Origin: a virus
Length of the DNA: 64,000 bases
Strand: one strand, 5' to 3'
Virus record (IMG/VR): IMGVR_UViG_3300021598_001198
Location: 92,673 to 156,672 of that record
Below the pieces are notes generated by a model. It did no database searches, was not told the origin of the DNA, and saw only the letters and a list, made by a program, of their open reading frames with translations. Shown piece by piece: positions 14,747-64,000 of the stretch. Position numbers and translations under genes: made by a program. The first letter of the stretch is position 1. Each line of letters opens with the position of its first letter.

Positions 14747-15161
14747 CGTTTTGTTCAGAATCTCTTATGTCAATTAATTTTTGAATTCTACTCCTACCTT
14801 TTTCACCAATTGGTACCGGATTACCTTCTTCATCAATCCTAACAAACCTTATGTTTGTTTTCAAGATGACAATTTGGTTACCTGTGTAAACATTATGTGC
14901 TCTTGCTTCCATATACAAGGTAACTGAAGTATTCCCTAATTTACTTGGTGACCCGTAAATTTTAATCAACTGACCCTCTTTGGCTGGTTTTTCAAAAAAA
15001 CATTTATCAATTGATACGGTAACTAATCTTGGTGAATCACACAATTGCATGGAGTATCCCGCAGCCGCCGCGTCAATCCACGCTAAAAGTTTTCCACCGA
15101 ATAAATTTCCGTGGAATCCTAAATCCGACTTTTTTATGGGGTGTGAATTCAAAAATTCCAT
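14733..15161 (-). CDS. Hot-dog-fold acyl-CoA thioesterase, 142 aa
   Basis: The pattern FHGNLFGGKLLAWIDAAAAG (residues about 17-36) is the signature of YciA/acyl-CoA hydrolase-type hot-dog thioesterases, in which an Asp and Asn of this block activate water against the thioester. RLVTVSIDKCFFEKPAKEG and VYTGNQIVILKTNIRFVRI fit the remaining strands. Such enzymes release CoA from fatty acyl-CoA, so this gene could modulate host lipid metabolism. The length is normal for a single domain. Its ATG overlaps the stop of the gene at 15161 by one base. Confidence 0.85.
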   Translation of the reverse strand: MEFLNSHPIKKSDLGFHGNLFGGKLLAWIDAAAAGYSMQLCDSPRLVTVSIDKCFFEKPAKEGQLIKIYGSPSKLGNTSVTLYMEARAHNVYTGNQIVILKTNIRFVRIDEEGNPVPIGEKGRSRIQKLIDIRDSEQNDVNP

Positions 15162-17618: not shown

Positions 17619-18473
17619 TTATTCTTCAAACATTACCAGTTGTTTCTTTTGGTTATCATAATCAATCAATCTCTGTTGAGATATCTTTGTGTAAGATTCT
17701 GATAACTCAAAACCAATATAATTTCTATTCAGCTTCTTAGCTGACAAAGCGGTGGTTCCACTTCCTGAAAAACAATCAACAATCAGGTCATTTTGATAGG
17801 AAAGTATTTTTATTGCTTTCATTGGGATGTCCATGGAGAATGTGGCTTTAGTTAAAGATTTTGTGTCGTTGAAGTATTTCCATTGACCAAAGACTAATTC
17901 CATGAATTCGTTTTTGTCTTTATCTGAATAAACCCTTTTGTTTTTAAAATTACCTTCCTCGTTTTCGACCTCAATCTGATTATAAGACCATTGAGATATA
18001 CCTTTTTCTTTCTTTTTGTAATCTTTCTTATATGCAAGAATTACACATTCTTTTGGATTGTATATGTATGGTGATGATGGTGACATCCAAGAACCCCAAG
18101 CGGTTGTTTTAGAACGGTGTGGAGAATCCTCCTCTAAGTCCACAACACCAAAGAATCCAAAACCAATCTCTTTCATCATCTGCCAATATTCAGATACTAA
18201 GAAAATTCTCCCACCTCTTTCTCTAACGTTTATTTCATATGGTATATTCAAGGCAATTCTACCATCATCTTTTAATGTACGGTAAACTTCGGATAACCAT
18301 TTCTTACACCACTCAAAATACTCATCCATCGGAGCATCGTCTTTGTGCACATCATAACTAATACCGACATTGTACGGTGGACTCGTAACAAAGAGGTCTA
18401 CAGTACCGTCATTTAACTCCTTAAACAGTTCTAAGCAGTCACCCTGATAAATTTTATTCATTTCCATTGACAA
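17619..18473 (-). CDS. DNA methyltransferase, beta-class (N6-adenine or N4-cytosine), 284 aa
   Basis: Motif IV (TSPPYN, near residue 31) comes before motif I (VDCFSGSGTT, near residue 235), the order of beta-class amino methyltransferases. The SPPY form is shared by N4-cytosine and many N6-adenine enzymes. The KPGE-like AdoMet segment is LNRNYIGFELSESY at the end. No target-recognition specificity can be read and no restriction enzyme is adjacent, so it is most likely a solitary phage methylase for protection from host restriction or for control. The first residues (MSMEMNKIYQGDCLE) give several near-equivalent starts. Confidence 0.9.
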   Translation of the reverse strand: MSMEMNKIYQGDCLELFKELNDGTVDLFVTSPPYNVGISYDVHKDDAPMDEYFEWCKKWLSEVYRTLKDDGRIALNIPYEINVRERGGRIFLVSEYWQMMKEIGFGFFGVVDLEEDSPHRSKTTAWGSWMSPSSPYIYNPKECVILAYKKDYKKKEKGISQWSYNQIEVENEEGNFKNKRVYSDKDKNEFMELVFGQWKYFNDTKSLTKATFSMDIPMKAIKILSYQNDLIVDCFSGSGTTALSAKKLNRNYIGFELSESYTKISQQRLIDYDNQKKQLVMFEE

Positions 18474-19066: not shown

Positions 19067-20524
19067 ATGATTACAATAGGTTACAGTACAAGAGAGTCCA
19101 ACCCAAAATTTCAAGAATATTTAAAAAAAACTTGTGGACACCCCAAAGTTCAAGTTATTGAAAAAGTAAACAATGGTGAAAAAAGTCTTTCACAAACTTA
19201 CAATGAAATTATTCAAGAGTCGATTCATGATATTGTCGTACTTTGTCATGATGACATTTACTTTAATACGACTTCGTGGGGTAGAAAATTAGTCAAACAT
19301 TTTGAAGAATCTGACTACGGGATTCTCGGTGTTGCCGGTACAACCAATATTCATGAGAGTGGTAGGTGGTGGACAGATAATACCAAAATGGTTGGTATTG
19401 TTAATCATGAAAATGAGGGTAAAAAATGGGAATCGAGATATGCAAATGGAATCCCAAATTCAATTCACGAAGTTTGTTTAGTGGATGGTTTATTCATTGG
19501 AATCCACAAAAACAGAATAAAACACACTTTTGATGAGTCAGTACCGGGTTTTCATTTTTATGATATGGTATTCTGTACTAGCAATCACTTAAGTGAGGTA
19601 AACATCGGTGTTATATACAACATAAGAATCACTCACAAATCAATCGGAATGACCAATGATTCTTGGGAAAAGAATAGGGAATTTTACATTGAAAAATTTA
19701 AAGAGAACCTACCAATTAATATAACACCAAAAATTGATTATGACATAACCAAACCAAAACAGTTTAAAGATAAATTTAATTTAATAGTTCAAACATCAAA
19801 CGATAATGAAAATTTAATTCAGTTTTTTGAAAACATAAAAAAATTACCAGTGTTTGATAGTTTACAGATTTCACTCATCTCGACGGATACCAATATAGAC
19901 AATATTAGAGAATTTGAATCTGAAAATATTAAAATTTACGAGGGTTTTTTTGATACATTAAATAAAAACTTATCAGTACTGAAATGGGATGAATCGTTTA
20001 TGGAATCAAAAACAGATTTGTTATTTTTCAGTAATGATACTGTTACCGTATTGAACGACGTTTTCTCAAGTATGTATTCAATATTTAAGAGTGAAAAAAA
20101 TACTTTTGGGTGCGTCTTTCCTACAGTATTAGAAAACGACCGAACAATTTTTTCAAATGGATTGGATATAGTTCAAAACAACGAACAGTTCAATTTAATT
20201 TTTAAAAACAAATCATCTTTTTTCAATATTTTACACGGACACTTTCCAAACAATTTTGGTAGTATTAGTGACTTTTTTGCCACTACATCTACAAATTTAA
20301 AAATGATTGATTGGTTTGATATTAATTTAGAAACATCAATTTATAACTTAGATTTTGCGTTGAAAACTTTACTTAAAAAACGTAAAACATTCATTGACAC
20401 AAACAGTGTGGTAATGATTGATATGGCATCAAAATTTGAAAAGGTTGATGTTGAATTAAAACAAGTCTTAGGTCAGTACATAAACTCACCTGAAATTAGA
20501 AAAAATATCAAACAATTAAGATGA
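19067..20524 (+). CDS. Glycosyltransferase, GT-A type, 485 aa
   Basis: The first 230 residues look like a family-2-like glycosyltransferase: YSTRESNPKFQEYL at the start, then IVVLCHDDIYF with the acidic DD pair that binds the metal/sugar nucleotide, and GRWWTDN further on. The second half (residues about 240-485) is a different region with FFSNDTVTVL and HGHFPNNFGS and may be a second transferase-like domain. It opens the glycan island, with the next gene overlapping its stop by four bases. Donor and acceptor unknown. Confidence 0.8.
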   Translation: MITIGYSTRESNPKFQEYLKKTCGHPKVQVIEKVNNGEKSLSQTYNEIIQESIHDIVVLCHDDIYFNTTSWGRKLVKHFEESDYGILGVAGTTNIHESGRWWTDNTKMVGIVNHENEGKKWESRYANGIPNSIHEVCLVDGLFIGIHKNRIKHTFDESVPGFHFYDMVFCTSNHLSEVNIGVIYNIRITHKSIGMTNDSWEKNREFYIEKFKENLPINITPKIDYDITKPKQFKDKFNLIVQTSNDNENLIQFFENIKKLPVFDSLQISLISTDTNIDNIREFESENIKIYEGFFDTLNKNLSVLKWDESFMESKTDLLFFSNDTVTVLNDVFSSMYSIFKSEKNTFGCVFPTVLENDRTIFSNGLDIVQNNEQFNLIFKNKSSFFNILHGHFPNNFGSISDFFATTSTNLKMIDWFDINLETSIYNLDFALKTLLKKRKTFIDTNSVVMIDMASKFEKVDVELKQVLGQYINSPEIRKNIKQLR

Positions 20525-21300
20525 TAAAAATTGTATCGGGATTTACAGAAAAAGGTGGTTCTACCACTTTTTTTATAAACTTAACAAATTTCTTAAATGA
20601 AAATGGTATTGATTGCACATTTTACGGTAATCAGAATTACCATTTAGACAAATGTAAATCAGGGAACATTGAAAAAGATTTAAAGTATGAATCTGATGAT
20701 ATTGTAATTACCCATTTTTTACAACTACAGGAAAGACCACCTGTTAAAAAAGTTATTTTGTCTTGTCATGAAAAATGGTGGTTCCCTGTTGGTAAAATTA
20801 AACAGTATTGGGACCTGTGCGTGTTTTTACATGAAGAGCATCGAAAATATCACTCGGATTACAGGGGTGATTATGTAATAATACCAAACATCAAAGAAAA
20901 TTTAATTATTTCAAATAAAGAGCTGGTAAGAAATATTGCAGGAATTATTGGTACAATTGAAGACAGAAAACAGACCCATGTGTCAATACAAAGAGCATTA
21001 AAAGACAGGTGTGAAAAAATCTATTTGTTCGGTCACATCGGTGACCAAAACTATTTTGACAAATTGGTAAAACCTTTAATGAATCCAAGAGTAATTCATT
21101 ACGGTCACACCACCAATAAACAAGAAATGTACGATATGATTGGTAAGGTATATCACTCATCAAAGGGTGAGGTTGCTTGTTTGGTTAAAGATGAATGTTA
21201 TTTAACCGGTACAGAGTTTTATGGTAATGAAGAGACTATGAATGAAGTTTCTAAATTAAGTAACGAAGAGATATTAACACTTTGGAAAAACATATTTTAA
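20521..21300 (+). CDS. Putative glycosyltransferase, GT-B-like, 259 aa
   Basis: Its start MIKIVSGFTEKGGSTTFFINLTNFL resembles the first Rossmann half of GT-B glycosyltransferases (glycine-rich loop after strand one). The second half has GIIGTIEDRKQTHVSI and IYLFGHIGD, like the start of a C-terminal Rossmann domain. It is shorter than a full GT-B enzyme, so it may be a minimal form. It is coupled to the upstream gene by an ATGA overlap. Confidence 0.65.
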   Translation: MIKIVSGFTEKGGSTTFFINLTNFLNENGIDCTFYGNQNYHLDKCKSGNIEKDLKYESDDIVITHFLQLQERPPVKKVILSCHEKWWFPVGKIKQYWDLCVFLHEEHRKYHSDYRGDYVIIPNIKENLIISNKELVRNIAGIIGTIEDRKQTHVSIQRALKDRCEKIYLFGHIGDQNYFDKLVKPLMNPRVIHYGHTTNKQEMYDMIGKVYHSSKGEVACLVKDECYLTGTEFYGNEETMNEVSKLSNEEILTLWKNIF

Positions 21301-21301
21301 A

Positions 21302-22024
21302 ATGAAGATACACGCACATATACTGTCATGGAATGAAGAAAAAATATTACCATTCACATTGGATTACTATAGTACAATCTGTGAAAAAATATTCATATAC
21401 GATAATATGTCAACGGACTCCTCTGATGAGATTTATAAGAGGTACCCAAAAGTTGAGGTTATTAAATGGGATAGTGGTAATGAAATAAATGAAATTAATT
21501 ACGTAAACATTAAATCCGAAGAGTATAAAAAAAGAAGTAGAGGTCAGGGTGTTGATTGGGTTATAGTTTGTGACTGTGATGAGTTTATATACCATGAAAA
21601 TCTTATGGATAAACTTCAAGAGTACAAAGAAATGGGTATAACCGTCCCAAGAATAGACGGTCACGACATGGTTAGTACTGAATTTCCAATATACGACGGT
21701 GAATTCATTACAACAAAAATTAAAACAGGTTCACAAACGTATGAACCAATGTGTAAAAATATAATTTTTCATCCTGATTTAGATATAAAATACGGCATTG
21801 GTGGTCACAGTTTTAATTCTGTTGATGGTAAATTTTCGGATGAGCGGGAAATAAAACTTCTTCACTATAAATTCTTGGGTAAAGACTACGTGAAGAACAT
21901 TTACATTTCAAGAGCAAAGAGATTGTCATCGTTCAATAAACAACATAAATTCGGTGAACATTATTTTAATTTACCATTCAATTACATGGACAGCATGTTA
22001 AAAGAAAATTATCAAGTTATATGA
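21302..22024 (+). CDS. Glycosyltransferase, family 2-like, 240 aa
   Basis: MKIHAHILSWNEEKILPFTL with IYDNMSTDSSDEI is the Glyco_tranf_2_4-type start, and VDWVIVCDCDEFIY carries the D-x-D motif that binds the metal and sugar nucleotide. Such enzymes usually extend polysaccharides. It starts one base after the previous stop and overlaps the following gene by four bases. Confidence 0.85.
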   Translation: MKIHAHILSWNEEKILPFTLDYYSTICEKIFIYDNMSTDSSDEIYKRYPKVEVIKWDSGNEINEINYVNIKSEEYKKRSRGQGVDWVIVCDCDEFIYHENLMDKLQEYKEMGITVPRIDGHDMVSTEFPIYDGEFITTKIKTGSQTYEPMCKNIIFHPDLDIKYGIGGHSFNSVDGKFSDEREIKLLHYKFLGKDYVKNIYISRAKRLSSFNKQHKFGEHYFNLPFNYMDSMLKENYQVI

Positions 22025-22842
22025 GGAAAATACTTATATCGGATTTTACCATTAAAGAAGTACCTCACGGTGGTTCTGAATGGGTGAATCAAGTTTTAAT
22101 TGATAGATTTAATCTTGAGTTTGAATATTCAAACCAAGTCAAGTCATTTGATTACAACGCCCTGTATATTATATCAAATATTTCTTTGATGAACCCAAAC
22201 TTGGTTAATCAAATACAAAATTTGAACTACGTCATTATTGAAAACGATTATAAAATATGTGCAAGTAGACACCCATGGAGATATACCGACAACATAATTC
22301 CGATTGAGGAAAGAACCAACTATTCTCTTTACCGGAATGCAAAAGCGGTATTTGTTCAAACAACCGACCACATGAACGTTTATCTTAAAAACGATGTTGT
22401 TGCTAATTTTATAAATCTGAATAGTTCGATATGGTCAAATGAGGACTTAGAATTATTGAGGAATTTAAATAAATCCAACAATGTTAAAAACGACAAATAT
22501 TCTGTTTACTATACAAATAATTGGATAAAGAACACCCAAGGTAGTCTGAAGTATTGTTCTGAAAATAAATTACCGGTCCATATTCTTAAAGAATCTAAAG
22601 ACAGAGTTGAATTTTTAAGTAATATGGCCAAATGTAAAGGTATTGTGTTTTTCCCGATAGCAAGAGAAACTTTTTGTAGACTGGTTGTTGAGGCAAAATG
22701 TTTAGGTTTGGAAGTAATAACGACACAAAATTATGGTGCAAGTTTAGAAGAATGGTTTAATAGGTTATCAGGTGATGAATTAATTGATTTCTTAGAAACT
22801 AACACTTTAAAAAATTTAGAAATCATTTCAACTTATATATGA
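22021..22842 (+). CDS. Putative glycosyltransferase, GT-B-like, 273 aa
   Basis: The start MRKILISDFTIKEVPHGGSEWVNQ has the glycine-rich loop of GT-B enzymes. Near the C-terminus FFPIARETFCRLVVEAKCLGLEVIT is like the donor-binding motif (P-x-x-E-x-F-x-x-x-x-x-E-A) of GT4-type transferases. The pattern gives a reasonable call though the protein is short. It is coupled on both sides by ATGA overlaps. Confidence 0.75.
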   Translation: MRKILISDFTIKEVPHGGSEWVNQVLIDRFNLEFEYSNQVKSFDYNALYIISNISLMNPNLVNQIQNLNYVIIENDYKICASRHPWRYTDNIIPIEERTNYSLYRNAKAVFVQTTDHMNVYLKNDVVANFINLNSSIWSNEDLELLRNLNKSNNVKNDKYSVYYTNNWIKNTQGSLKYCSENKLPVHILKESKDRVEFLSNMAKCKGIVFFPIARETFCRLVVEAKCLGLEVITTQNYGASLEEWFNRLSGDELIDFLETNTLKNLEIISTYI

Positions 22843-23831
22843 TATTATTTTGTTACGGCACAAGACCTGAGTATATTAAAATAAAAAAATTAATAGAAAT
22901 GTGTGGGGAAAGTATTCCCCATAAAATTTTATATGTTACCCAACACAAAGATATTGTATTGGGTGATTTTGATTATAAATTATCCATTGATGATACGTGT
23001 GAAAATAGATTGGATAGTATTATGTCATCCGTATTTTTAAATTTTAAAAAAGAATTTTTGGAAGGGGTTACACATATACTTATCCAAGGGGACACCGCAA
23101 CCGCTCTTTCATTATCCCTAATAGGATTACACCATAAAAAAGAAGTGATTCATTTAGAAGCGGGATTACGGACATATGACTACAATCACCCTTACCCCGA
23201 AGAAATGTATCGGCAGTTAATTAGTAGAATTTCAAACTATAATCTTTGCCCAACAGAAAGTAACAAGATGAACTTAGAAAATGAAAAAGTTCAGGGTAAA
23301 AATTTTGTAGTTGGCAATACCGTATTAGATAATCTTAATAAAGAAAATATTACATACGAAAATAAAGTCTTAATCACTTTACATAGAAGAGAGAATCATG
23401 AGATGATGTCGGAGTGGTTTGATGTTATCAATCGATTAGCAAAGAATAATCCTGAATTAAAATTCATTCTTCCAATACACCCAAACCCAAACGTCATAAA
23501 ACACAAACATATATTGACACATGTTGATGTTATTGAACCATTAACCCATGATAAATTTATTGAGGAATTCAAATCCTGTAAATTACTAATTTCAGATAGT
23601 GGGGGTGTTCAAGAAGAGGCGTCGTTCCTAAATAAGAAAGTTATTGTATGTAGAGAAAAAACTGAGAGACCTGAGTCCTTGGGTAAAACGTCTTTTATAT
23701 GTAAAAAACCCATTGACTTAGAAGGTATTTTTTACGATATTATTAACGATTTCCAAACAGAATATGATTGTCCTTTTGGTGATGGTAATTCTTGTGAAAG
23801 AATCATTGAAATATTTAGAAAAATTGTATGA
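22839..23831 (+). CDS. wecB: UDP-N-acetylglucosamine 2-epimerase, 330 aa
   Basis: It interconverts UDP-GlcNAc and UDP-ManNAc, precursors of ManNAc- or ManNAcA-containing glycans. The signatures are GTRPEYIK at the start, QGDTATAL, HLEAGLRTYD, HPYPEEMYRQLISR, VGNTVLDN, LHRRENH, and SDSGGVQEEA with CREKTERPE near the end. Length is close to that of bacterial WecB. Having a nucleotide-sugar enzyme in the cluster means the phage sets up its own donor supply. It is embedded between transferases by ATGA overlaps. Confidence 0.93.
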   Translation: MILFCYGTRPEYIKIKKLIEMCGESIPHKILYVTQHKDIVLGDFDYKLSIDDTCENRLDSIMSSVFLNFKKEFLEGVTHILIQGDTATALSLSLIGLHHKKEVIHLEAGLRTYDYNHPYPEEMYRQLISRISNYNLCPTESNKMNLENEKVQGKNFVVGNTVLDNLNKENITYENKVLITLHRRENHEMMSEWFDVINRLAKNNPELKFILPIHPNPNVIKHKHILTHVDVIEPLTHDKFIEEFKSCKLLISDSGGVQEEASFLNKKVIVCREKTERPESLGKTSFICKKPIDLEGIFYDIINDFQTEYDCPFGDGNSCERIIEIFRKIV

Positions 23832-24556
23832 GTATAACGGTAATATTAAATGGGTATAAAAGACCACATGTTCTCCAAAAACAATTGGAATCAATTAGAA
23901 ATCAAAGTGTCCAACCCGAATCAATTTTATTTTGGCAAAATTCTGGTTCTCAATTTGATGAGGGACTAACCAAAGATTTAATTCACGCATCTTGTAATAG
24001 TAATTTAGGTGTGTGGGCAAGATTTGCATTTGCTTTAAATGCCAACACAGAATATATTTGTGTTTTTGATGATGACACAATACCGGGTAAACTATGGTTA
24101 GAAAACTGTCTAAACACCATGAAAATTCAAGAAGGTTTATTAGGAACTATCGGTGTAAAATTTCACACAAAAAACTCTTATTGGCCAGCAACAAGAGTCG
24201 GTTGGGACCAACCTAACGAAGAAATTGAAAAGGTCGACATTGTTGGTCACTCGTGGTTCTTTAAAAGAGAATGGTTATCGATATTTTGGAGAGAATTACC
24301 TGAAATCAATCAGAGTAAATTAGTTGGTGAGGATATGCACTTTTCATATACATTACAGAAATACGCAAATATCGGAACTTACGTTCCTCCCCATCCTAAA
24401 GAAAATAGAGAAATGTGGGGTAGTATACCAGAATATGCATGGGAACATGGAACTGATTCCAACGCAATTTCCGTAAATCATTCAAATATGAATTTAATGG
24501 GTGAAGTTTACCGTGGGTATGTAAATAAAGGATTTAAGACAATATTAAATGATTGA
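23828..24556 (+). CDS. Glycosyltransferase, family 2, 242 aa
   Basis: The N-terminus ITVILNGYKRPHVLQKQLESI is a family-2 start, followed by YICVFDDDTIPGKLWLE, whose DDD holds the metal-binding D-x-D. Later VDIVGHSWFFKREWL and EDMHFSY are the acceptor-side motifs of such enzymes. The C-terminal eight bases overlap the following gene. Confidence 0.88.
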   Translation: MSITVILNGYKRPHVLQKQLESIRNQSVQPESILFWQNSGSQFDEGLTKDLIHASCNSNLGVWARFAFALNANTEYICVFDDDTIPGKLWLENCLNTMKIQEGLLGTIGVKFHTKNSYWPATRVGWDQPNEEIEKVDIVGHSWFFKREWLSIFWRELPEINQSKLVGEDMHFSYTLQKYANIGTYVPPHPKENREMWGSIPEYAWEHGTDSNAISVNHSNMNLMGEVYRGYVNKGFKTILND

Positions 24557-25268
24557 AAAGTATATTGAAGATTTTAATTCGTTTTGGGAAAAGATAGATA
24601 GTCGAACTAACTTTTCTTTTGTTAGATATGCCGATGGTGAAGTGATGTTAATGAATAATTCACCGATAGAAAAGAATACACAAGCGTATCAAAACGATAA
24701 ATGGTTTTCGAGTGGGGGACAAACCAAATTAGGTGTGGATTTAAATGAATGTATAGGGTTGAACGACCCAAATTTTTATTTTGCAATATCCTCCAAAACT
24801 GATAGTATTAGAGACTATAATTTTTTATATGATAGAATACAAAATAAATCAAACATTACATTTGCTAACCTATGGATTAACGCAAATTACAAAGAAAATA
24901 TATCAAGAATAAGAAATATAAATCGAGATGTTGTTTTAATTTGTAATGAAAATTGTGATTTAAAAAACATACCATTTAGTGTATCAGAATTTGTACCGTT
25001 CCCTAATGATTGTGTAAACTATTGGGAAGAACATAGAGATTCGTTTTTAGAAAAAATATACAATGTTTCTTCAAAATATAAAGATACTTTATTTATCGTA
25101 TGTTGTGGACCAACATCTGCTGTTATCATAAAACATATGTTTACAAATAATAGTAATAACACTTATATTGATTTTGGTTCCGCATTAGATGTATTCATAC
25201 ATAATAAAATAACTAGACCATACATGTATGAAGGGTCACAATATCATAATCACATATCAAAATTTTAA
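24549..25268 (+). CDS. GT-D-fold-like glycosyltransferase, 239 aa
   Basis: The segment FSFVRYADGEVMLMNN (residues about 22-37) resembles the R-[FY]-G-D-G-E motif of GT-D (DUF1792-type) glycosyltransferases, with Ala in place of the first Gly. The motif near the end, YIDFGSALDVF, is the matching glycine-serine block. GT-D enzymes add a sugar to glycosylated Ser-rich adhesins, which is of interest here given the Thr/Pro-rich virion proteins. The first eight bases overlap the previous gene. Confidence 0.7.
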   Translation: MIEKYIEDFNSFWEKIDSRTNFSFVRYADGEVMLMNNSPIEKNTQAYQNDKWFSSGGQTKLGVDLNECIGLNDPNFYFAISSKTDSIRDYNFLYDRIQNKSNITFANLWINANYKENISRIRNINRDVVLICNENCDLKNIPFSVSEFVPFPNDCVNYWEEHRDSFLEKIYNVSSKYKDTLFIVCCGPTSAVIIKHMFTNNSNNTYIDFGSALDVFIHNKITRPYMYEGSQYHNHISKF

Positions 25269-25274
25269 TTCAGT

Positions 25275-25865
25275 ATGAATAATGATTTTTGTGTCATAGT
25301 ACAAGGACCTTCAGACTACGTTAAAGAATTAAAAAACGCTTGGACTGGTTATGATTTGATTTGGTCAACATGGCAAGGTGAAGAATCAAAATACGATACT
25401 AATGATGTTGTCTTATTCAACAGTATTCCACACGATAGGGGTGTACAAAATATAGCACTACAAAAAATATCAACTTTGAATGGAATAATGAAAGCCAAAG
25501 AAATAGGTTACAACAGAGTCCTTAAATGGAGAAGTGATTTACTACCATCTAATGCAAATAGATTAGTTTCCACATTTAAAAAAGAGTGTGTAAATTTTTT
25601 GACTTGGCATAATGAAGGAAAATATTTTGTTGATTATTTTGTGGAGGGTGAAATAGATACGGTGTTTGATATTTGGAATGTATCTACCATACACGATGAG
25701 TATTCGGAAAAAATAATCACGGAAAATATAATATCACTTAACTATAAAAATATAAACTTTATGGGTGGCGAATTAAGTAATGATAATGAAATTTTTTGGT
25801 TAAAACGAAATATTAATTTGTCCACATATAAAGACGCACCATGTTATAGTATGGTGGTGATTTAA
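25275..25865 (+). CDS. WavE-like glycosyltransferase-type protein, 196 aa
   Basis: It opens FCVIVQGPSDYVKEL, goes on with DLIWSTWQGEE and has RVLKWRSDLLPSN, a block like the K-x-R-x-D motif of WavE/LPS-synthesis-type glycosyltransferases. That family adds sugars in LPS core or capsule synthesis. The protein is rather short, so it may be a minimal form. There is a six-base gap before it. Confidence 0.65.
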   Translation: MNNDFCVIVQGPSDYVKELKNAWTGYDLIWSTWQGEESKYDTNDVVLFNSIPHDRGVQNIALQKISTLNGIMKAKEIGYNRVLKWRSDLLPSNANRLVSTFKKECVNFLTWHNEGKYFVDYFVEGEIDTVFDIWNVSTIHDEYSEKIITENIISLNYKNINFMGGELSNDNEIFWLKRNINLSTYKDAPCYSMVVI

Positions 25866-25876
25866 AAATTATAAAA

Positions 25877-26611
25877 ATGATAGATAATTCAAAATTTATT
25901 GACGACGCATTTACTCAAGATGAATTAAATAGGGGTGCCTTTACCGATTTGAATGGTAGATGTCCATTATGGACAACAAAAATGATTAATGTTATAAAAG
26001 ATAAAATTGACTTTAATGATGTCAACACAATATTAGATATTGGGTCAAGAGATGGTTGCCAAAGTTTAGAGTTAAATAGATGGTTTCCACATGCTAAAAT
26101 ATATGCGTTTGAACCAGTAAAAGAAAACTACGAATTTACAGTTAAGAACGTTGAGAAAATTAATAACATAAAAGTTTACCAATACGCAATAAACAATTAC
26201 AACGGTAAAACTAAATTTTACGAAGTTTATAATGGAAATGTGGGTGCCAGTTCTTTATTACAGACAACAAACCACTGGCGTTCATCTCAGTGGGCCCAAA
26301 AGGAAACTGAGGTTGACTGTATTGTTCTTAGTGATTGGTTAAAAGAAAATGATATTAAAAGTGTTGATTTGATTTGGATGGATGTTCAAGGTGCAGAAAA
26401 TATCGTATTAGACTCTCTAAAAGAATATTTAAATGATGTAAAAATAATAACCACCGAAGTAGGGTTACAGGAATTATATCGTGGTTCTACAAGTAAATCT
26501 GAACTAGATGAAAAACTAAATAGGTTTATACCAATAGACGAGTCGCCAGAATCTTCAAACACAGAAATGGATGTGGTTTATATCAACAAAAATTTAACAC
26601 CTTATGGATAA
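25877..26611 (+). CDS. FkbM-family methyltransferase, 244 aa
   Basis: AdoMet-binding motif I is LDIGSRDGCQSLEL, followed by IYAFEPVKENYEF (motif II) and DLIWMDVQGAENIVL, the D-V-Q-G-x-E block typical of FkbM methyltransferases. These enzymes O-methylate sugars or small molecules. In this cluster it probably methylates a hydroxyl of the glycan. It overlaps the next gene by eight bases. A second FkbM gene lies at 29501. Confidence 0.88.
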   Translation: MIDNSKFIDDAFTQDELNRGAFTDLNGRCPLWTTKMINVIKDKIDFNDVNTILDIGSRDGCQSLELNRWFPHAKIYAFEPVKENYEFTVKNVEKINNIKVYQYAINNYNGKTKFYEVYNGNVGASSLLQTTNHWRSSQWAQKETEVDCIVLSDWLKENDIKSVDLIWMDVQGAENIVLDSLKEYLNDVKIITTEVGLQELYRGSTSKSELDEKLNRFIPIDESPESSNTEMDVVYINKNLTPYG

Positions 26612-27305
26612 TAAAATTTGTTACGTTACTTATACAAATTCAAAATGTTCAGATATTTTGGATATGTTCTTGTTAGAACAAAAAAAGTACACAAACTTAC
26701 CGATGTATTTTATTACAGATGTAATGATACCCGAGCAAATTTGTTTTTTATATGAAAATCAAGAACCTTATTATGAATCATGGTTAAAGTGTTTATCTTC
26801 AATACCATATGACTATTTTATATACTTACAAGAAGACTTTATTCTTTATAACAATGTCAGTCATGATAAAATTTTTAATTACCTCGATTTTTTACATGAT
26901 AACCAAGAATATTCGTTCATTAGATTGTTAAAATCGGGGTCTGTTAAAGATAAAAAAATTTATGAGACCTTATATGAAATAGAATCCGACAATAAAGATA
27001 TATTTTCTATGCAACCAACTATTTGGAAAAAAGATGATTACATTAAAATCATGAAAGGTACCAAAAATAATATGTGGTTAGAGAATGAAACATATAGAAA
27101 TTTTATGATAGAAAACAACATCAAAGGTTTATATCATTACGATGGTGAAAACAAAAGGGGGTTGAATCATTTTGATAGTTCTGTTTATCCATATATAGCA
27201 ACGGCTTTAGTTAGAGGTAAATGGAATTTATCTGAATACCCTAATGAACTCTCTCCATTAATAAATGAATATGAAATAAACGTAAATGTTCGGGGGATAC
27301 ATTAA
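26604..27305 (+). CDS. Putative glycosyltransferase, GT-A-like, 233 aa
   Basis: The motif YDYFIYLQEDFILYN (residues about 73-87) is the acidic strand-end motif of GT-A transferases, and FSMQPTIWKKDDY is like the acceptor-binding segment seen in WbqC/capsule transferases. The remaining sequence is charged and soluble. It lies in the middle of the glycan operon, which strengthens the call. Confidence 0.7.
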   Translation: MDNKICYVTYTNSKCSDILDMFLLEQKKYTNLPMYFITDVMIPEQICFLYENQEPYYESWLKCLSSIPYDYFIYLQEDFILYNNVSHDKIFNYLDFLHDNQEYSFIRLLKSGSVKDKKIYETLYEIESDNKDIFSMQPTIWKKDDYIKIMKGTKNNMWLENETYRNFMIENNIKGLYHYDGENKRGLNHFDSSVYPYIATALVRGKWNLSEYPNELSPLINEYEINVNVRGIH

Positions 27306-27307
27306 TA

Positions 27308-27982
27308 ATGAAAATTGTTCTATCTTTTTACACCAACAATAAATTTAGTAACACCGTTCAAAAATTAATCGGATATTATAATTCACGTGGTTTCAATGAT
27401 ATCCGAGGATTTAAATCTGAAGATGTTAAGAAAGGTATTTTTTATGAAAACCATAAAGAAATATTAGATTGTGAAACGGGTGATGGATTTTGGTTGTGGA
27501 AACCAAAAATTATTTTAGATATTTTGAATGAATTAGAAGATGGGGATGCATTAATTTATACCGATGCCGGTGATTTAGTTGATGTTGATTATAATACGAT
27601 TGCAAATTATTTGAAAGATAATGATTATTATTTTACAAATTGGAATGGAAATCGTTGGCCTCAAAAAATATGTACAAAAAGAGACTGTTTTATCTTGATG
27701 GATTGTGATGAAGAAAAGTTTCATGAAACACCACAGATGGAAGCAGGATTTATCATCATTAAAAAAACCAAACAAATGATGGAATTTGTTCACGATTATT
27801 TTAAGTATTGTAGTATTAAACAGATAGTTGACAATGAACCAAATCAAATTGGTGAGAATTTTCCAAATTGGCAATTCCATAGAAATGACCAAAGTATATT
27901 AACTAACTTGGTTGTGAAACATAATTTAAAATTTGATTATTGTCTCGATTATAGAATAAAATACAACGTATATATACCATGA
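27308..27982 (+). CDS. Putative glycosyltransferase of the GWLWKPKII type, 224 aa
   Basis: The segment DGFWLWKPKIILDIL and the following GDALIYTDAGDLV are like a family of bacterial/phage capsule glycosyltransferases, in which DAGD is the metal-binding acidic motif. FHETPQMEAGFIIIKKT later fits the same family. The gene overlaps the next by four bases. Confidence 0.7.
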   Translation: MKIVLSFYTNNKFSNTVQKLIGYYNSRGFNDIRGFKSEDVKKGIFYENHKEILDCETGDGFWLWKPKIILDILNELEDGDALIYTDAGDLVDVDYNTIANYLKDNDYYFTNWNGNRWPQKICTKRDCFILMDCDEEKFHETPQMEAGFIIIKKTKQMMEFVHDYFKYCSIKQIVDNEPNQIGENFPNWQFHRNDQSILTNLVVKHNLKFDYCLDYRIKYNVYIP

Positions 27983-28740
27983 AATTTATTGCATTAAATT
28001 ATAATTATGACTTAAATAAAATGTCCCAAATCGGTCGGAAATGGGCGTTTGATGTCTACAAAAATAAAGAGTTTATATCTGATTATTCATCAGCATCTTA
28101 TGCTTCATTTATTGATAAGAATAGAAAAAGTATTTTACATCTTTATACTGATGATGTTGAGGGTATGAAAGAAAAAATGAACAAGTATAACATTGACCAA
28201 GACAGAATTATTTATATTGATTACACGGAACAACTTACCAAATACAATGAAAGTCTTAATTATAGTTTTACAGTTTTAAATGATTTTATTAATTATGCAA
28301 AATCAGAAACTGAGTACACTGTAAAAATCGATAATGATTTATTTTTTCATTCGGAATTACCACAAATTGATGATAATTCTATTATGGTTTGGAAGTATGA
28401 AAGAATCGTTAGGAATGGTGACCCGAGATGGGGTGAAATAAAAATATGTAAACAGGTTACAAATGATTTAGATTTTAAAATTTATAATTTAGGTATTTTT
28501 GGGTTGCCCGCGGATTACAATATTCACCAAGCAAAAAAAATTATGGAAGATATGATATCGGTAGACATTTCAGATGTGACTGATACAGACTCGAAGATTT
28601 ATCATTGTTGTGAGCAAACGGCAAATAATTGGATTTTTCACAAAGAAAATTATAACGTGATTGAAACGTATAATTATGTTGACCACCTGTTTGATAGAAA
28701 AGGTGATTGTATAGAATTATCAAAATATCTTTTAAAATGA
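27979..28740 (+). CDS. Putative glycosyltransferase, GT-A-like, 253 aa
   Basis: The pattern TEYTVKIDNDLFFHSELP contains an acidic D-N-D after a hydrophobic strand, as in GT-A enzymes, and the C-terminus is rich in His/Asn. No other family signature is clear, so the call rests on that motif and on the operon. It is coupled to the neighbours by ATGA overlaps. Confidence 0.6.
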   Translation: MKFIALNYNYDLNKMSQIGRKWAFDVYKNKEFISDYSSASYASFIDKNRKSILHLYTDDVEGMKEKMNKYNIDQDRIIYIDYTEQLTKYNESLNYSFTVLNDFINYAKSETEYTVKIDNDLFFHSELPQIDDNSIMVWKYERIVRNGDPRWGEIKICKQVTNDLDFKIYNLGIFGLPADYNIHQAKKIMEDMISVDISDVTDTDSKIYHCCEQTANNWIFHKENYNVIETYNYVDHLFDRKGDCIELSKYLLK

Positions 28741-29504
28741 AAACATCAGTAGTATTGACAATTCACAACAAGGAATTCTTAATGAACCAAGTGGTGAGTA
28801 ACTTGGTAAATAATTTATCAGAACTGAATGACCAGATTGTAATAGTTTTTGATGGTTGTACAGATAATAGTGAAGGTATTGTTCGTGACAATTTAAAGAG
28901 AGTTAGTAATAAAAAAATTGATTACCTGTATGCCGACAATGTTTTTGAAACCAAAGCAAATAATATTGGTCTAAAGTCTGTTATAAATGATTATGTGGTC
29001 TTAATCCAAGATGATATGGTTGTCACAGAAAAAGATTTTGATAAGAGGATGTTGGAACCGTTCATAAAATATAGTGATGTGTTCGCTGTAACATCTTTTG
29101 TTGCTCACAATAACATCTATAATGAACAAACAAAACAAATAAATTACATCGATATTGCACATAAAGATAACTCATCAAGAGATATTTTTTATGCTAGAGA
29201 ATATGGTAACAGAGGTCCACTAATGTACAACTATAATGACGTGGTCAAATTAAATTTTTTAGACGAATATTTTTCACCCCAAAATTATGATGATATGGAT
29301 ATGTCCATGAGAGCATTCAAAGAACTCGGAAAAGTGTCAGGTTTATATACGATAGATTATATTTCCGAACCTGGATGGGGGACCACTAGACAAAAAAATC
29401 AATCATTACATAATAATTTAGTTTACGTAAACGCAGCAAAAATACTTGAAAAACACAGGGATTTATTGTATAATAAAGACAAATATAAAGAGGATAGAGA
29501 ATGA
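28737..29504 (+). CDS. Glycosyltransferase, family 2, 255 aa
   Basis: The start MKTSVVLTIHNKEFLMNQVV is a classical family-2 beginning, with IVIVFDGCTDNSEGI (first acidic motif) and YVVLIQDDMVV (D-D before the metal). The protein also has YDDMDMSMRAFKELG, the ED-like catalytic block. The start at 28737 overlaps the upstream stop by four bases; an upstream in-frame ATG at 28707 is inside the previous gene and unlikely. Confidence 0.9.
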   Translation: MKTSVVLTIHNKEFLMNQVVSNLVNNLSELNDQIVIVFDGCTDNSEGIVRDNLKRVSNKKIDYLYADNVFETKANNIGLKSVINDYVVLIQDDMVVTEKDFDKRMLEPFIKYSDVFAVTSFVAHNNIYNEQTKQINYIDIAHKDNSSRDIFYAREYGNRGPLMYNYNDVVKLNFLDEYFSPQNYDDMDMSMRAFKELGKVSGLYTIDYISEPGWGTTRQKNQSLHNNLVYVNAAKILEKHRDLLYNKDKYKEDRE

Positions 29505-30118
29505 ATAATATAGAGCTAAAGACATTTATGATTAATCATAATGTTAATATCCATGGTGTGATTCACGTTGGTGCACATTTTGGTCAAGAAGATGAAGTTT
29601 ATAAGGAATTGGGTATTTCAAACAGAATATACTTTGAACCTCTATCGTCTAATTTTGAGACCTTAAAAGAAAAAATAGATGATGACGCAATTTTAGTTAA
29701 ACTGGCGTTAGGTAATGAAAAGAGAAAAGTTTCTATGTTTGTAGAATCCTTTAATAAAGGTATGTCATCCTCAATATTAGAACCGAAATTACATTCTGTT
29801 CAATTTCCTCATATCGTTTTTGATTCTGTAGAAGAAGTTGAAATGGATAGATTGGATGATTTAAATTACGATTTTTCAAAATACAACATGATGAATATCG
29901 ATGTTCAAGGTTTTGAATTAGAGGTTCTCAAAGGTTCCGTGAATACATTAATCAACATTGACTACGTTATTGTAGAAATAAACAGAGCCGAATTATATAA
30001 AGGTTGTCCACACTTTGATGAAATAAACAATTGGATGACACATCATGGGTTTACCTGTGTTGAACAATTTTGGTGGGGTAATAATTTTGGTGAGGGATTT
30101 TTTAAAAAAATAAAATGA
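29501..30118 (+). CDS. FkbM-family methyltransferase, 205 aa
   Basis: IHGVIHVGAHFGQEDEVY is AdoMet motif I, IYFEPLSSNFETL is motif II and MMNIDVQGFELEVLKGS is the FkbM D-V-Q-G-x-E block. It is a second, shorter member of the family than the gene at 25877 and diverged from it. The substrate is probably a sugar hydroxyl. Overlaps on both sides are four bases. Confidence 0.88.
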   Translation: MNNIELKTFMINHNVNIHGVIHVGAHFGQEDEVYKELGISNRIYFEPLSSNFETLKEKIDDDAILVKLALGNEKRKVSMFVESFNKGMSSSILEPKLHSVQFPHIVFDSVEEVEMDRLDDLNYDFSKYNMMNIDVQGFELEVLKGSVNTLINIDYVIVEINRAELYKGCPHFDEINNWMTHHGFTCVEQFWWGNNFGEGFFKKIK

Positions 30119-31176
30119 AACGAGTATTAGTATTGGGTGGTGGCGGATTTATTGGTGGTCACCTAGCAAAAAGATTAAAAAATGAAGGAAACTACGTAAG
30201 AGTAGTTGATATAAAAAGACACGAATATTTTGATGAGAAAGACTTTTGTGACGAATTCTTAATATATGACCTTACGGACCCAAAAAACGTATCATCAGTA
30301 ATGAGATTAGAAGAATTAAATGGTACGATATTACCGTTTAATTATTACAAACAACCATATTCAACTGAGGTCCCATTTGATGAGGTTTATCAATTAGCTG
30401 CCGATATGGGTGGTGCTGGTTACATCTTCACTGGTGAAAATGACGCGAATGTTATGCACAATTCTGCAATGATAAATTTAAATGTTGTAAATGAATCAGT
30501 GAAGACAAAAGTTAAGAAGATTTTTTATTCATCATCGGCATGTATGTATCCTGAACACAATCAATTAGACCCTAACAACCCAAATTGTGAAGAATCATCA
30601 GCATATCCCGCGAATCCTGATTCAGAATATGGTTGGGAAAAACTTTTTTCGGAAAGGTTGTACTTGGCTTTTCACAGAAATCACGGTTTGGATGTTCGAA
30701 TTGCTAGATTTCATAACATATTTGGTCCATATGGTACGTGGAAAGGTGGTAAAGAAAAAGCACCAGCAGCTATGTGTAGAAAAGTTGCCGAAATGTTAGA
30801 CGGTGGAGAAATTGAAGTTTGGGGTGATGGTCAACAGACTCGTTCATTCTTATATGTGGATGAATGTGTTGAAGCGGTTTTAAGACTAATGAGACAAGAC
30901 TCTTTTTTGGGTCCTGTAAACATTGGTTCTGAAGAGAAAGTAACAATTAATGATTTGGCTCAAATGGCTATAGATATTTCAGGTAAAGAAATTTATATCA
31001 GAAATATTGGTGGGGAAGAATTTAAACAGAAGTATGGATATAAATGTCCTGTTGGTGTGAGGGGAAGAAATTCAGACAATAAATTATACCACGAAAAAAT
31101 AGGTTGGGTTGTTAGTGAACCTCTGTTCTATGGAATGGAAAAAACCTATAAATGGATTAATAGTTTAGTTAAATAA
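30115..31176 (+). CDS. GDP-mannose 3,5-epimerase-like NAD-dependent epimerase, 353 aa
   Basis: It starts with an NAD-binding GGGGFIGGHLAK loop (residues about 8-19), then QLAADMGGAGYI, SSSACMYPEH, SEYGWEKL (Y-x-x-x-K catalytic pair), RFHNIFGPYGTWKGGKEKAPAA and WGDGQQTRSFLYVDE. The DMGG, ACMYP and FGPYGTWKGGKEKAPAA blocks are the hallmark of GDP-mannose 3,5-epimerase, which makes GDP-L-galactose/L-gulose from GDP-mannose. This is the last gene of the glycan island. A C6-modified or L-sugar in the glycan would follow if it is active. Confidence 0.85.
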   Translation: MKRVLVLGGGGFIGGHLAKRLKNEGNYVRVVDIKRHEYFDEKDFCDEFLIYDLTDPKNVSSVMRLEELNGTILPFNYYKQPYSTEVPFDEVYQLAADMGGAGYIFTGENDANVMHNSAMINLNVVNESVKTKVKKIFYSSSACMYPEHNQLDPNNPNCEESSAYPANPDSEYGWEKLFSERLYLAFHRNHGLDVRIARFHNIFGPYGTWKGGKEKAPAAMCRKVAEMLDGGEIEVWGDGQQTRSFLYVDECVEAVLRLMRQDSFLGPVNIGSEEKVTINDLAQMAIDISGKEIYIRNIGGEEFKQKYGYKCPVGVRGRNSDNKLYHEKIGWVVSEPLFYGMEKTYKWINSLVK

Positions 31177-60521: not shown

Positions 60522-63500
60522 TTAACATGCTTCTCCACAAAATGTGTTACAATAATCACCACAACCAGTACCGTATGTATATTGCGAAGTATATATTGGT
60601 GGTACGAAGTTTCCTCTAAACAATATAAACACATTTGTCACTCTCATAAGACAAACGCTATAATTACCAGGGGCGTTATAACCTTGTGTTGTGAATGTAC
60701 CATCACAACATTGGTATGCAAAGTATACTTGATTATCATCTGAGGCTGTTAAATCATTAATATCAACAAAAAAGTCTGTACACAAACAATCACCACAAGC
60801 ACCATCATACGTTATCTCCCCACCATAAGGACCTAATACACTTGGAATACTACATGAACATATCTCAATTGTACCACTTGCTGGGTACACATTTGGGTCA
60901 AGTATTTCTGTGGGTGTTCCTCCACCGCAACAAGTGGTATAGTTAACTATATTACCAGGTCCTAATCCTGTAATAATATATGACTCACAAACACATGGTG
61001 GAGTTGGGGTTGGGGTCGGAGTTGGAGTTGGGGTTGGGGTTGATGACGGATTTGAAACCGGAGATGGTGTTGGAGTGTTTGTTGGAGTGTTTGTTGGAGT
61101 TACAGTCTTGGTTGGTGTATTTGTAGGAGTATTGGTTGGTGTTAAAGTTGGAGTAACTGTCCTTGTTGGAGTATTTGTAGGGGTAAAGGTTGGAGTTACA
61201 GTCTTGGTTGGAGTATTTGTAGGGGTAAAGGTTGGAGTTACAGTCTTGGTTGGTGTATTTGTAGGGGTAAAGGTTGGAGTTACAGTCTTGGTTGGTGTAT
61301 TTGTAGGAGTATTGGTTGGTGTTAAAGTTGGAGTAACTGTCCTTGTTGGTGTATTTGTCGGTGTTTTTGTTGGGGTTAAAGTTGGTGTAACTGTTGGTGT
61401 AACTGTTGGGGTTGGTGAAGGACAAGGGTGATAAGTTTCACATTCAGTACATGTATTGTATGTACCATACGCAGTGATTGCGGAACCAGGTACTCCTGGT
61501 CCGACTGAGTTTGTAACAAAATAACAACAACCATTAATTGATATATAACGGTTTACTAAAAGATTTGGGTTAAATCCATTTTGACAACCAAATTGAATTG
61601 TATATTGTCCTGTTGTACCACAACATCCACATCTTTGTAAATCGAAAATCCAAGTGGCGCATGGGTTAGCTCCAATACATGTTTCACATGTATCAACACT
61701 AAATGATGATGGTGGATAATACCCGTCAACCCCACTAAAGTTTGGTGGTGAGTAGGTTTGACTATAACCTTCAACAAAATAACAACATCCATTTATAACA
61801 ATAGTTTGACCTTGTGAAATACCGCTTTGAACATAGGTCAAATTAGTTGTTATACTTAAATAAGAAATAGTATTACCTAAAATACCACCATCACAACATG
61901 GTAATAAATAAACATAACCAACCTGTAAGGATGGTGATGGTGTTACTGTGCTTGTTGGTGTTAATGTAGGAGTTAAAGTTGGTGTAACTGTTTTTGTTGG
62001 TGTATTGGTAGGGGTTACGGATGGTGTTCTCGTAGGAGTAACACTATTGGTTGGGGTGTTAGTCGGGGTTAAAGTTGGTGTAACTGTTCTTGTTGGTGTA
62101 TTGGTAGGGGTTACCGTAGGGCTAACAGTGGCGGCTGGAGTTCTTGTTGGAGTAACAGTATTTGTTGGGGTATTGGTTGGTGTGAGAGTTGGTGTAACTG
62201 TTCTTGTTGGTGTATTGGTAGGGGTTACCGTATTCGTAGGTGTAACAGTTCTGGTTGGTGTTGGTGTCGGGGTTGGTGATGGACAAAAATTTAGAGTTTC
62301 TCCTAAACATTGTGCACAACTTGTCTGAACAGTAGTGTAAATCGTACCTCCAGGTCCTACCTGTTGCACATACGTTGCACATAACTGAATGTCTTGTAAA
62401 TAAAATACCGTACCTAACAATGTACCTAATGGTACTTGACCATAATAAACATTGGTGTCACCAGGACAACATGATTCAAATCTAGCAGCAACATACTGAG
62501 GACTAGCCGTTGGGGTTACTGTTTTGGTTGGTGTCAATGTTGGTGTAACAGTATTTGTTGGAGTGTTAGTTGGTGTTACGGTTGGACTAACTGTGGCAGC
62601 CGGTGTTCTTGTTGGTGTAACAGTATTTGTTGGGGTATTTGTTGGAGTTACCGTAGGACTAACAGTGGCTGCTGGAGTTCTTGTTGGGGTATTGGTTGGG
62701 GTAACAGTATTTGTGGGGGTTACTGTGTTCGTTGGGGTATTGGTAGGTGTATTTGTTGGTGTTAATGTTGGACTAACAGTAGCCGCTGGTGTTCTTGTTG
62801 GTGTAACAGTATTTGTTGGGGTATTTGTTGGAGTTACCGTATTTGTTGGAGTATTAGTTGGGGTGTTAGTTGGTGTTACAGTGTTGGTTGGTGTATTAGT
62901 TGGAGTTAAAGTTGGTGTAACTGTTCTTGTTGGTGTATTGGTAGGTGTAACTGTATTCGTAGGGGTGACTGTATTAGTTGGAGTGTTGGTTGGAGTATTA
63001 GTTGGAGTTAAGGTTGGACTAACAGTGGCAGCTGGTGTTCTTGTCGGGGTTACGGTATTAGTAGGGGTATTGGTTGGAGTTACCGTATTTGTTGGAGTAT
63101 TAGTTGGGGTGTTGGTTGGAGTAACAGTGTTGGTTGGGGTGTTAGTAGGGGTGTTGGTCGGTGTAACTGTATTTGTTGGAGTAACAGTATTAGTAGGTGT
63201 GTTTGTTGGTGTGTTAGTCGGTGTTAATGTTGGACTAACAGTAGCCGCTGGTGTTCTCGTAGGAGTTACAGTATTGGTAGGAGTATTGGTAGGAGTAACG
63301 GTGTTTGTTGGGGTGTTTGTAGGAGTATTGGTTGGTGTTACAGTATTGGTTGGAGTATTGGTTGGTGTAAAAGTTGGTGTAACAGTTTTTGTTGGTGTAT
63401 TAGTAGGAGTATTGGTCGGTGTGACAGTGTTGGTTGGTGTTACTGTATTTGTTGGAGTATTGGTTGGGGTATTGGTTGGTGTAAGGGTAGGACTAACAGT

Positions 63501-64000
63501 GGCTGCCGGAGTTCTTGTTGGAGTAACAGTATTGGTTGGGGTATTGGTTGGTGTAACAGTATTAGTCGGCGTATTGGTTGGAGTATTTGTTGGTGTGACT
63601 GTATTCGTTGGAGTGTTAGTAGGTGTAAAAGTTGGTGTGACGGTTCTTGTTGGTGTATTGGTTGGTGTAACGGTATTGGTTGGGGTGTTTGTGGGTGTAA
63701 GGGTAGGACTAACAGTGGCGGCCGGAGTTCTTGTTGGAGTCACTGTATTGGTCGGTGTGTTGGTGGGTGTGACTGTGTTAGTAGGTGTATTTGTAGGTGT
63801 ATTAGTTGGTGTGACTGTATTTGTTGGAGTGTTTGTTGGGGTGTTTGTGGGTGTAACAGTATTAGTAGGAGTATTGGTTGGTGTTACAGTTTTGGTTGGA
63901 GTGTTAGTAGGTGTAACAGTATTAGTAGGTGTATTGGTAGGTGTATTGGTTGGTGTAACAGTATTCGTAGGAGTATTTGTTGGAGTATTTGTTGGACTAA
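60522..64000 (-). CDS. Very large Cys-module protein with mucin-like Pro-Thr repeats, N-terminus beyond right edge
   Basis: The open frame runs through the right edge, so at least 1159 residues are visible. Two long PT-repeat blocks (most of 60.9-64 kb) separate Cys-rich modules such as [48 protein letters not shown] and a C-terminal [11 protein letters not shown] module ending at [13 protein letters not shown]. The repeats have the form [18 protein letters not shown] with a variant [10 protein letters not shown] at intervals. No signal peptide or cleavage site is in view. Third-base variation across repeats shows it is translated. It probably is a giant fibre or adhesin. Confidence 0.75.
61020..61425 (-). 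repeat. Second Pro-Thr repeat block
   Basis: Repeats of the form [18 protein letters not shown] (with Phe and Lys positions) between two Cys-rich regions of the same gene. The unit is about 48 bases long and recurs with near-identical sequence four times. Confidence 0.75.
62509..64000 (-). repeat. Higher-order Pro-Thr-Asn repeat block in the giant fibre gene
   Basis: Short codon-scale repeats (Pro-Thr-Asn-Thr, Pro-Thr-Asn-Thr-Val-Thr) are organised in longer units marked by the variant [10 protein letters not shown], which recurs at spacings of roughly 70-265 bases (markers near 62.58, 62.65, 62.77, 63.01, 63.22, 63.49 and 63.70 kb). A further copy lies near 62.13 kb. The units are imperfect at DNA level. 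Confidence 0.8.

Follow-up and report, generated by a model that had tools for sequence, protein, structure and literature searches.

What does a bacterial virus do with fifteen consecutive genes of sugar metabolism? The stretch of DNA analysed here (the window: 64,000 nucleotides, positions 92673-156672 of the uncultured virus record G000, which is 156,672 bases long) carries at 19067-31176 an island of 15 plus-strand open reading frames (ORFs), g1 to g15 (Table 1). The original prediction was that this island builds a glycan on Thr/Pro/Ser-rich proteins of the phage itself. We find that self-glycosylation of these proteins is probably right, mainly by way of two glycosyltransferase genes of family GT60 that lie outside the window, whereas a tight link between the island and the repeat proteins did not hold. 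The locus is probably part of a system with which a T4-like jumbo phage glycosylates proteins of its own virion: GT60 would prime Thr/Pro-repeat (TP) proteins, and the island most likely contributes to extension of the glycan. Below, G numbers denote records compared and L numbers denote loci with their flanks.

The phage is represented by more than one record. G002 (233,563 bases) is 99.999% identical to G000 across 113 kb and reaches 120 kb past the window, and the two together span about 277 kb (156,672 + about 120,250 bases, assuming no second overlap). The G002 extension holds T4-like structural genes, namely those for the major head protein, portal, terminase, tail sheath and baseplate wedge; the phage is a jumbo phage and T4-like. 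G006 and G052 are further records of the same phage.

At least four proteins with mucin-like repeats had been predicted, and the window holds four ORFs in which Thr, Pro and Ser make up 38-53% of the residues. The one that runs off the window is whole at G002:107307-123722, where it forms an uninterrupted ORF of 5,472 codons (45% Thr, 20% Pro and 14.5% Asn), a length unusual among phage proteins; it contains 2,471 Thr, 1,095 Pro and 1,062 (S/T)P dipeptides. Since the counts of the TP pattern are alike in G006 (275) and G052 (272), an assembly artefact appears unlikely. Small Cys-containing stretches alternate with the TP repeats. The TP ORFs are located in the region of the baseplate wedge and tail sheath genes, a position that suggests that they encode virion proteins; PHROGs returned no family for the five large ORFs tried near them.

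A second operon, made up of 14 minus-strand ORFs with gaps of at most 26 bp, runs from 12258 to 415 of G000. It opens with two tandem genes at G000:9726-12258, some 99 kb upstream of the island. Their products match PF11397, which we take to be CAZy family GT60, with E values of 3e-72 and 7e-48 (244 and 164 bits against a family cut-off of 21), so that an enzyme of this family and candidate acceptors with Thr/Ser/Pro tandem repeats exist in the same genome. As a search with the GT60 sequence against PDB sequences gave no match, its fold was predicted. The model of the first copy, built from 52 phage sequences, had a predicted local distance difference test score (pLDDT) of 93.3. When it was compared with the PDB using Foldseek, the 38 best rows were all polypeptide N-acetylgalactosamine (GalNAc)-transferases, as were the 29 best rows from VIA-align (Z 22.6-19.6; next row Z 17.5). 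As modelled, the first copy is therefore a GT-A fold enzyme of the polypeptide N-acetylhexosamine (HexNAc)-transferase, or mucin-transferase, type. Two motifs, D96-S97-H98 (DSH) and G207-E208-E209 (GEE), are invariant across the 52 rows and retained in both copies, and DSH presumably has the catalytic role of the DxH motif in GT60. Five comparisons, each at dS above 1, gave ratios of nonsynonymous to synonymous substitution rates (dN/dS) of 0.04-0.07; a sixth, which was saturated, is excluded.

GT60 genes and TP repeats tend to occur in the same records. In a set of 50 large records, of which 25 were picked by GT60 and 20 by the epimerase gene g15 alone (without regard to GT60 or TP repeats), the TP pattern was present in 35 of 39 records with GT60 (three by a single match) and in 5 of 11 without it (Fisher p = 0.004), the 35/39 count being biased by the GT60-picked half. 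The 20 g15-picked records are a fairer sample, yet contain near copies (G040 and G041 carry an identical capsid protein); here the pattern was found in 10/10 records with GT60 versus 4/10 without (p = 0.011). Some of the GT60-negative labels are doubtful because the records are fragments, as with G050 and G051, of which only one is scored with GT60 although their capsid proteins are identical. Sampling in the reverse direction, by TP repeat, gave GT60 in 12 of the 21 records among those listed (own-phage and short contigs excluded), and GT60 was found in 0/39 TP-negative records from the samples picked by g15 and g7. One GT60 record, G024, also had one match to the reversed control pattern. 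Within flanks of up to 10 kb, TP stretches accompanied 22/80 GT60 loci versus 0/75 g15 loci. In L164 and L174 (and in L175, by the same coordinates) the TP gene is the one immediately before GT60, and a single gene separates the two in L184, L186 and L188, all on the same strand. Close adjacency as a statistic was dropped, since the 6/80 loci with both within about 2 kb are about what would be expected from 22 TP-bearing loci. The counts show a strong association of GT60 with TP repeats, always in the same direction, which is not proven free of kinship.

The GT60 pair is present in 10/10 of the nearest loci (L109-L118 of 80), with identities of 74-100% and 77-100% for the two copies, while the genes behind it are exchanged: the first methyltransferase-like gene is kept in 7/10, HAD-nucleotidyltransferase and GDPD-like genes are found in 3/10 (L109, L110 and L112), and the remaining genes are other sugar-type ORFs in about five arrangements (L111 being a short fragment). 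A constant pair with an exchanged cassette is as expected of a glycoprotein locus with a fixed priming step and a diversifying glycan. Tandem GT60 is rare beyond these near relatives, with two copies in 4/73 loci (L116-L188). Cassette genes also vary in length among the phage's own records; the MT2 ORF has 153 codons in G000 and 232 in L109, and the nucleotidyltransferase ORF has 191 in L110 and 229 in L109.

The fifteen-gene island was real as described, and its content is supported for six transferases (g1, g3, g4 weakly, g6, g7 and g13), for a UDP-N-acetylglucosamine (UDP-GlcNAc) 2-epimerase and a GDP-mannose 3,5-epimerase (g5 and g15) and for two FkbM methyltransferases (g9 and g14), the last four being confirmed by PDB or Pfam matches. 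The prediction of about eleven glycosyltransferases went further than these six; profile searches gave no transferase family match for g2, g8, g10, g11 and g12, which are plausible as transferases. For g10, g11 and g12 the profile searches against the PDB gave nothing or chance-level rows, hence no convincing sequence match, and PHROGs gave no family for the nine island genes tried. The statement that almost all of the genes overlap was a little strong: 10 of the 14 junctions do so, eight by 4 bp and two by 8 bp, and four are gaps of 1-11 bp, taking the ATG of g13 at 28737 as its start. Gene 24549 (g7) had been likened to GT-D enzymes acting on Ser-rich adhesins, with structure prediction proposed as a check. 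Its model, built from 46 sequences (pLDDT 95.9), had only three PDB matches below E 1e-3, all of them DUF1792 GT-D enzymes (4phr, 4pfx and 5v4a), and its match to the Pfam GT-D-like family was below the cut-off (E 1.2e-4); at the level of a predicted structure, the GT-D fold is confirmed. The predicted fold of g7 is that of the DUF1792 enzymes of Ser-rich adhesin glycosylation, at 14% identity over aligned columns; the g7 family occurs in phages without any TP-repeat match. Against the relative G004, dN/dS was 0.04-0.08 for g11-g15 at dS 0.5-1.4 (g10, cut off in G004, was left out).

Islands homologous to this one, partly rearranged, were found in L024/L363, L060/L368, L364 and L366/L367, with most genes 45-76% and some 29-42% identical, and a smaller core recurs in many of the 68 loci L363-L430 as varying subsets of g4, g6, g5, g7, g10 and the HAD-nucleotidyltransferase and GDPD-like genes. 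The latter two are contiguous with island genes in L363 and L366; in the present phage their place is behind the GT60 pair, with one methyltransferase-like ORF in between. Likewise, L368, L372, L377 and L378 have nucleotidyltransferase, cupin and RuBisCO-like genes directly joined to island genes, and here such genes stand behind the GT60 pair. This placement would agree with a single pathway distributed over two operons. The most economical interpretation is a modular pathway of glycan building, of which, in this phage, one of two operons is headed by the priming enzymes. Where TP proteins are absent from a phage, that pathway must serve another acceptor. The exchange of cassettes behind the pair favours GT60 as the primer and weakens the split-cassette argument for the island, about equally.

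The RuBisCO-like protein (L088:3674-4903, G000 outside the window; PF00016 E 1e-31) has counterparts in L060:12628-13806, L368, L372, L377 and L378, in phage sugar cassettes, beside cupin and nucleotidyltransferase genes. Searched against the PDB, it matched form III and RuBisCO-like proteins best. It retains the Lys of the KxDE block, while the alignment suggests that the loop-6 Lys is replaced, so the protein is probably no carboxylase. It was rejected as a general partner of GT60, being found in 2/50 records, both of the phage itself.

In agreement with the prediction that flippase and polymerase genes are lacking, a crude hydropathy count found no ORF with at least five predicted transmembrane segments in G000 or its 121-kb extension (ORFs of at least 70 or 80 codons). 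There is therefore no Wzx/Wzy candidate, and a cytoplasmic acceptor is likely, whether this is a TP protein or another molecule. We propose that the TP-repeat proteins of the tail-gene region would be primed in the cytoplasm by the two GT60-type polypeptide HexNAc-transferases, and that soluble transferases fed with nucleotide sugars would then extend and methylate the glycan. The island, with g5, g15, its GT2, GT-B and GT-D transferases and its two FkbM methyltransferases, most likely contributes to these later steps. The genes, their families, the mucin-transferase fold of GT60, the GT60/TP association, the constant pair with exchanged cassettes and the lack of a Wzx/Wzy-like protein are results of computation; a donor sugar, Thr as the acceptor, the TP proteins as parts of the virion and the island as supplier or extender of the glycan are what we infer.

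Isolated phages with GT60 are few. Among 50,697 phage records, matches at E 1e-5 were limited to Xanthomonas phage XacN1 and Stenotrophomonas phages CM1 and RAS14. XacN1 and RAS14 both carry TP stretches; in XacN1, ORF334 is the GT60 enzyme (48% identity) and ORF350 has 654 residues with a long TP domain. In the portion of the XacN1 report consulted, at least two glycoproteins were detected and phage transferases were proposed as their makers (PMC5852040). XacN1 is thus like the present phage in its GT60 homologue, its TP-rich ORF and its reported glycoproteins, and differs in having a Xanthomonas host. A carbamoyltransferase gene (PF16861) follows GT60 in XacN1 (L269:17989-21706), and ORFs of similar appearance were seen by eye near GT60 in L117, L487 and L490.

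Outside phages, the GT60 members described in the parts consulted of three reports are polypeptide alpha-GlcNAc-transferases: TcOGNT enzymes form GlcNAc-alpha-Thr on mucins of Trypanosoma cruzi, and Gnt1 acts on a hydroxyproline of Skp1 (PMC9472816, PMC6939170, PMC3769586). The phage enzyme has its family in common with TcOGNT and with Gnt1 of Dictyostelium/Toxoplasma, as judged from the PF11397 match, and the T. cruzi acceptors are likewise Thr-rich; unlike these enzymes it is phage-encoded and, in the model, extends at its C-terminus into a beta region of about 90 residues. The mucin-type polypeptide GalNAc-transferases (GT27) initiate dense O-glycans on Thr/Ser/Pro repeats. They share the modelled fold (Z 22.6), while their identity to the phage enzyme is 11-17% and they form another CAZy family. 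Virion glycosylation by phage enzymes is already known from mycobacteriophages, where, as far as the citing text relates, capsid and tail tube are modified (Freeman 2023, cited in PMC12619734) at their C-termini rather than at mucin-like repeats, and has been suggested for XacN1. Large eukaryotic DNA viruses likewise encode glycan assembly, according to the part of the source consulted, but are viruses of eukaryotes and have other acceptors (PMC4691112). The literature searched, which did not extend to most subscription papers, contained no description of phage GT60 enzymes or phage mucin-like acceptors other than the XacN1 statement.

A number of results weigh against GT60 priming of TP virion proteins with extension by the island. 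Four of the 39 GT60 records are TP-negative, and the 22/80 flanks with a TP stretch are not clearly above the expectation by place in TP-rich genomes. A tree of 35 major-capsid proteins (35 of the 60 records searched gave a usable row, and two more, small-fragment matches, were left out) typically yielded four independent pairs for the association, none against and four uninformative (p = 0.125), too few pairs to reach significance. GT60 homologues occur in many bacteria, and T. brucei, in the part of the report consulted, possesses a GT60 whose function is not known but lacks mucin-like molecules (PMC9472816). XacN1 encodes a GT9 enzyme (ORF328), no tail fibres were seen in this phage, and the identity of its glycosylated proteins is not given in the text consulted (PMC5852040). 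Five island genes are without an assigned function. HAD-nucleotidyltransferase or GDPD genes lie within flanks of up to 10 kb of GT60 in only 4/73 loci (L116-L188), and their presence in only 3/10 of the nearest loci marks the arrangement as unstable, which weakens the argument for a split cassette. A further result concerns the island itself: in 33 large phage records picked by a g7 homologue, drawn from 80 loci with own-phage records and contigs under about 70 kb excluded and with several near copies among them, GT60 was present in 0/33 and the TP-repeat pattern in 0/33, which speaks against a tight coupling of the island to TP proteins.

This last result is also what one would expect if GT60 glycosylates the TP proteins and the island acts on something else, such as another protein of the virion. 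The lack of island homologues near most GT60 loci and the turnover of sugar genes behind the pair in near relatives point the same way. We nevertheless consider such a division of labour unlikely, if far from negligible, because the HAD-nucleotidyltransferase, GDPD, cupin and RuBisCO-like genes share one 14-ORF run with the GT60 pair and the same cassette genes adjoin island genes in other phages. That the island instead remodels the lipopolysaccharide (LPS) or another surface glycan of the host, blocking superinfection or changing the receptor, draws on the abundance of similar cassettes in phage contigs and on the frequency of g15 relatives in Synechococcus phages (84/213 records). Such a role would be hard to reconcile with the missing flippase and polymerase candidates (by the crude count above) and with an investment as large as 15 genes, and the lone transporter-like gene noticed, G000:71278-72120 (L091), encodes an ABC_membrane_3 protein without an ATPase domain; we regard it as improbable. 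Phage transferases that act on modified bases are well known, and a 2024 report on them is cited in PMC12619734; glycosylation of hypermodified phage DNA was also weighed. The check for base-modification genes that the original prediction called for turned up a thymidylate synthase only: the ThyA homologue at 12247-13572 of the window belongs to PF00303 and keeps the Asn of its FNIASY block, presumably the dUMP-specific residue of thymidylate synthase, and a search that did not cover every family brought no base-hydroxylase gene to notice. The present phage encodes two DNA methyltransferases. Glycosylation of DNA is accordingly very improbable.

Returning to GT60-primed virion glycoproteins, the combination of features may have a wider meaning. 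Some jumbo phages quite possibly possess complete mucin-type O-glycosylation, in which giant TP virion proteins would be primed by GT60 and exchangeable cassettes, one with a RuBisCO-like enzyme, would build and methylate an unusual, strain-variable glycan, giving a mucin-like coat. As far as the literature searches show, the mucin-transferase fold of a phage GT60, its pairing with TP repeats across contigs, a putative acceptor of 5,472 codons and the constant pair with exchanged cassettes are new. To our knowledge, mucin-type O-glycosylation is generally thought to be eukaryotic; if the proposal is true, bacterial viruses would have a counterpart in this phage lineage, which combines a transferase of the matching fold with giant Thr-Pro acceptors and sugar genes by the dozen. 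The glycan coat could then mediate binding to the host or to mucus and shield the phage from recognition, the system would be a possible source of enzymes for building mucin-like glycans in bacteria, and many "orphan" phage glycosyltransferases would become directly testable.

Table 1. Island genes and Thr/Pro-repeat ORFs, in window coordinates.
Feature	Position	Strand	Evidence or composition
g1, glycosyltransferase	19067..20524	+	PF13712 E 2.9e-24
g2, transferase-like by position only	20521..21300	+	no Pfam match; homologues in L024, L060, L366
g3, glycosyltransferase family 2	21302..22024	+	PF13704 E 3.2e-15
g4, probable GT-B transferase	22021..22842	+	PF00534 E 0.0025, weak, below cut-off
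g5, UDP-GlcNAc 2-epimerase	22839..23831	+	PF02350 E 4e-60; PDB 6vlb E 1.3e-43; TIGR00236 just under cut-off
g6, glycosyltransferase family 2	23828..24556	+	PF00535 E 1e-6
g7, GT-D fold glycosyltransferase (gene 24549)	24549..25268	+	predicted structure, PDB fold matches
g8, without family	25275..25865	+	no Pfam, PHROG or NCBIfam match
g9, FkbM methyltransferase	25877..26611	+	PF05050 E 1e-19
g10, without family match	26604..27305	+	family and PDB profile searches
g11	27308..27982	+	below-cut-off or chance-level rows only
g12, without family match	27979..28740	+	74-75% identical in L024, L060
g13, glycosyltransferase family 2	28737..29504	+	PF00535 E 1.9e-12; ATG start within listed TTG ORF
g14, FkbM methyltransferase	29501..30118	+	PF05050 E 1.3e-16
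g15, GDP-mannose 3',5'-epimerase	30115..31176	+	PDB 2c59 E 1.3e-87
TP-repeat protein, 973 aa	53700..56621	-	51% T+P+S, 259 Thr, 108 (S/T)P
TP-repeat protein, 282 aa	57001..57849	-	38% T+P+S (107 residues), 21 (S/T)P
TP-repeat protein, 854 aa	57913..60477	-	39% T+P+S, 51 (S/T)P
Giant TP-repeat protein, C-terminal part, running off the window	60522..64000	-	53% T+P+S over 60522-63743

The bacterial GT60 loci showed features of their own. A TP stretch was present at 15/80 of them. Several of these belong to GC-rich genomes, in which TP stretches are more frequent, and this count was not used as evidence. In Jiulongibacter sediminis (L490:5957-9242) a TP-rich ORF lies between GT60 and a second GT60-like ORF, the second recognised by eye. 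In two Bacteroidetes loci, L495 and L527, GT60 was seen by eye near ORFs resembling C39-peptidase ABC exporters, as in secreted peptide systems, and glycosylated peptides are possible there.

Around the island, the window contains further genes of note. DNA methyltransferases of different classes flank it at 17619-18473 and 33161-34051 (PF01555 and PF02086). By eye, glutamine synthetase-like and acyl-CoA thioesterase-like ORFs were recognised at 15510-16634 and 14733-15161, respectively, and a lipoprotein-like ORF at 10445-11821 carries a CxxCH haem-type motif, which is odd for a phage.

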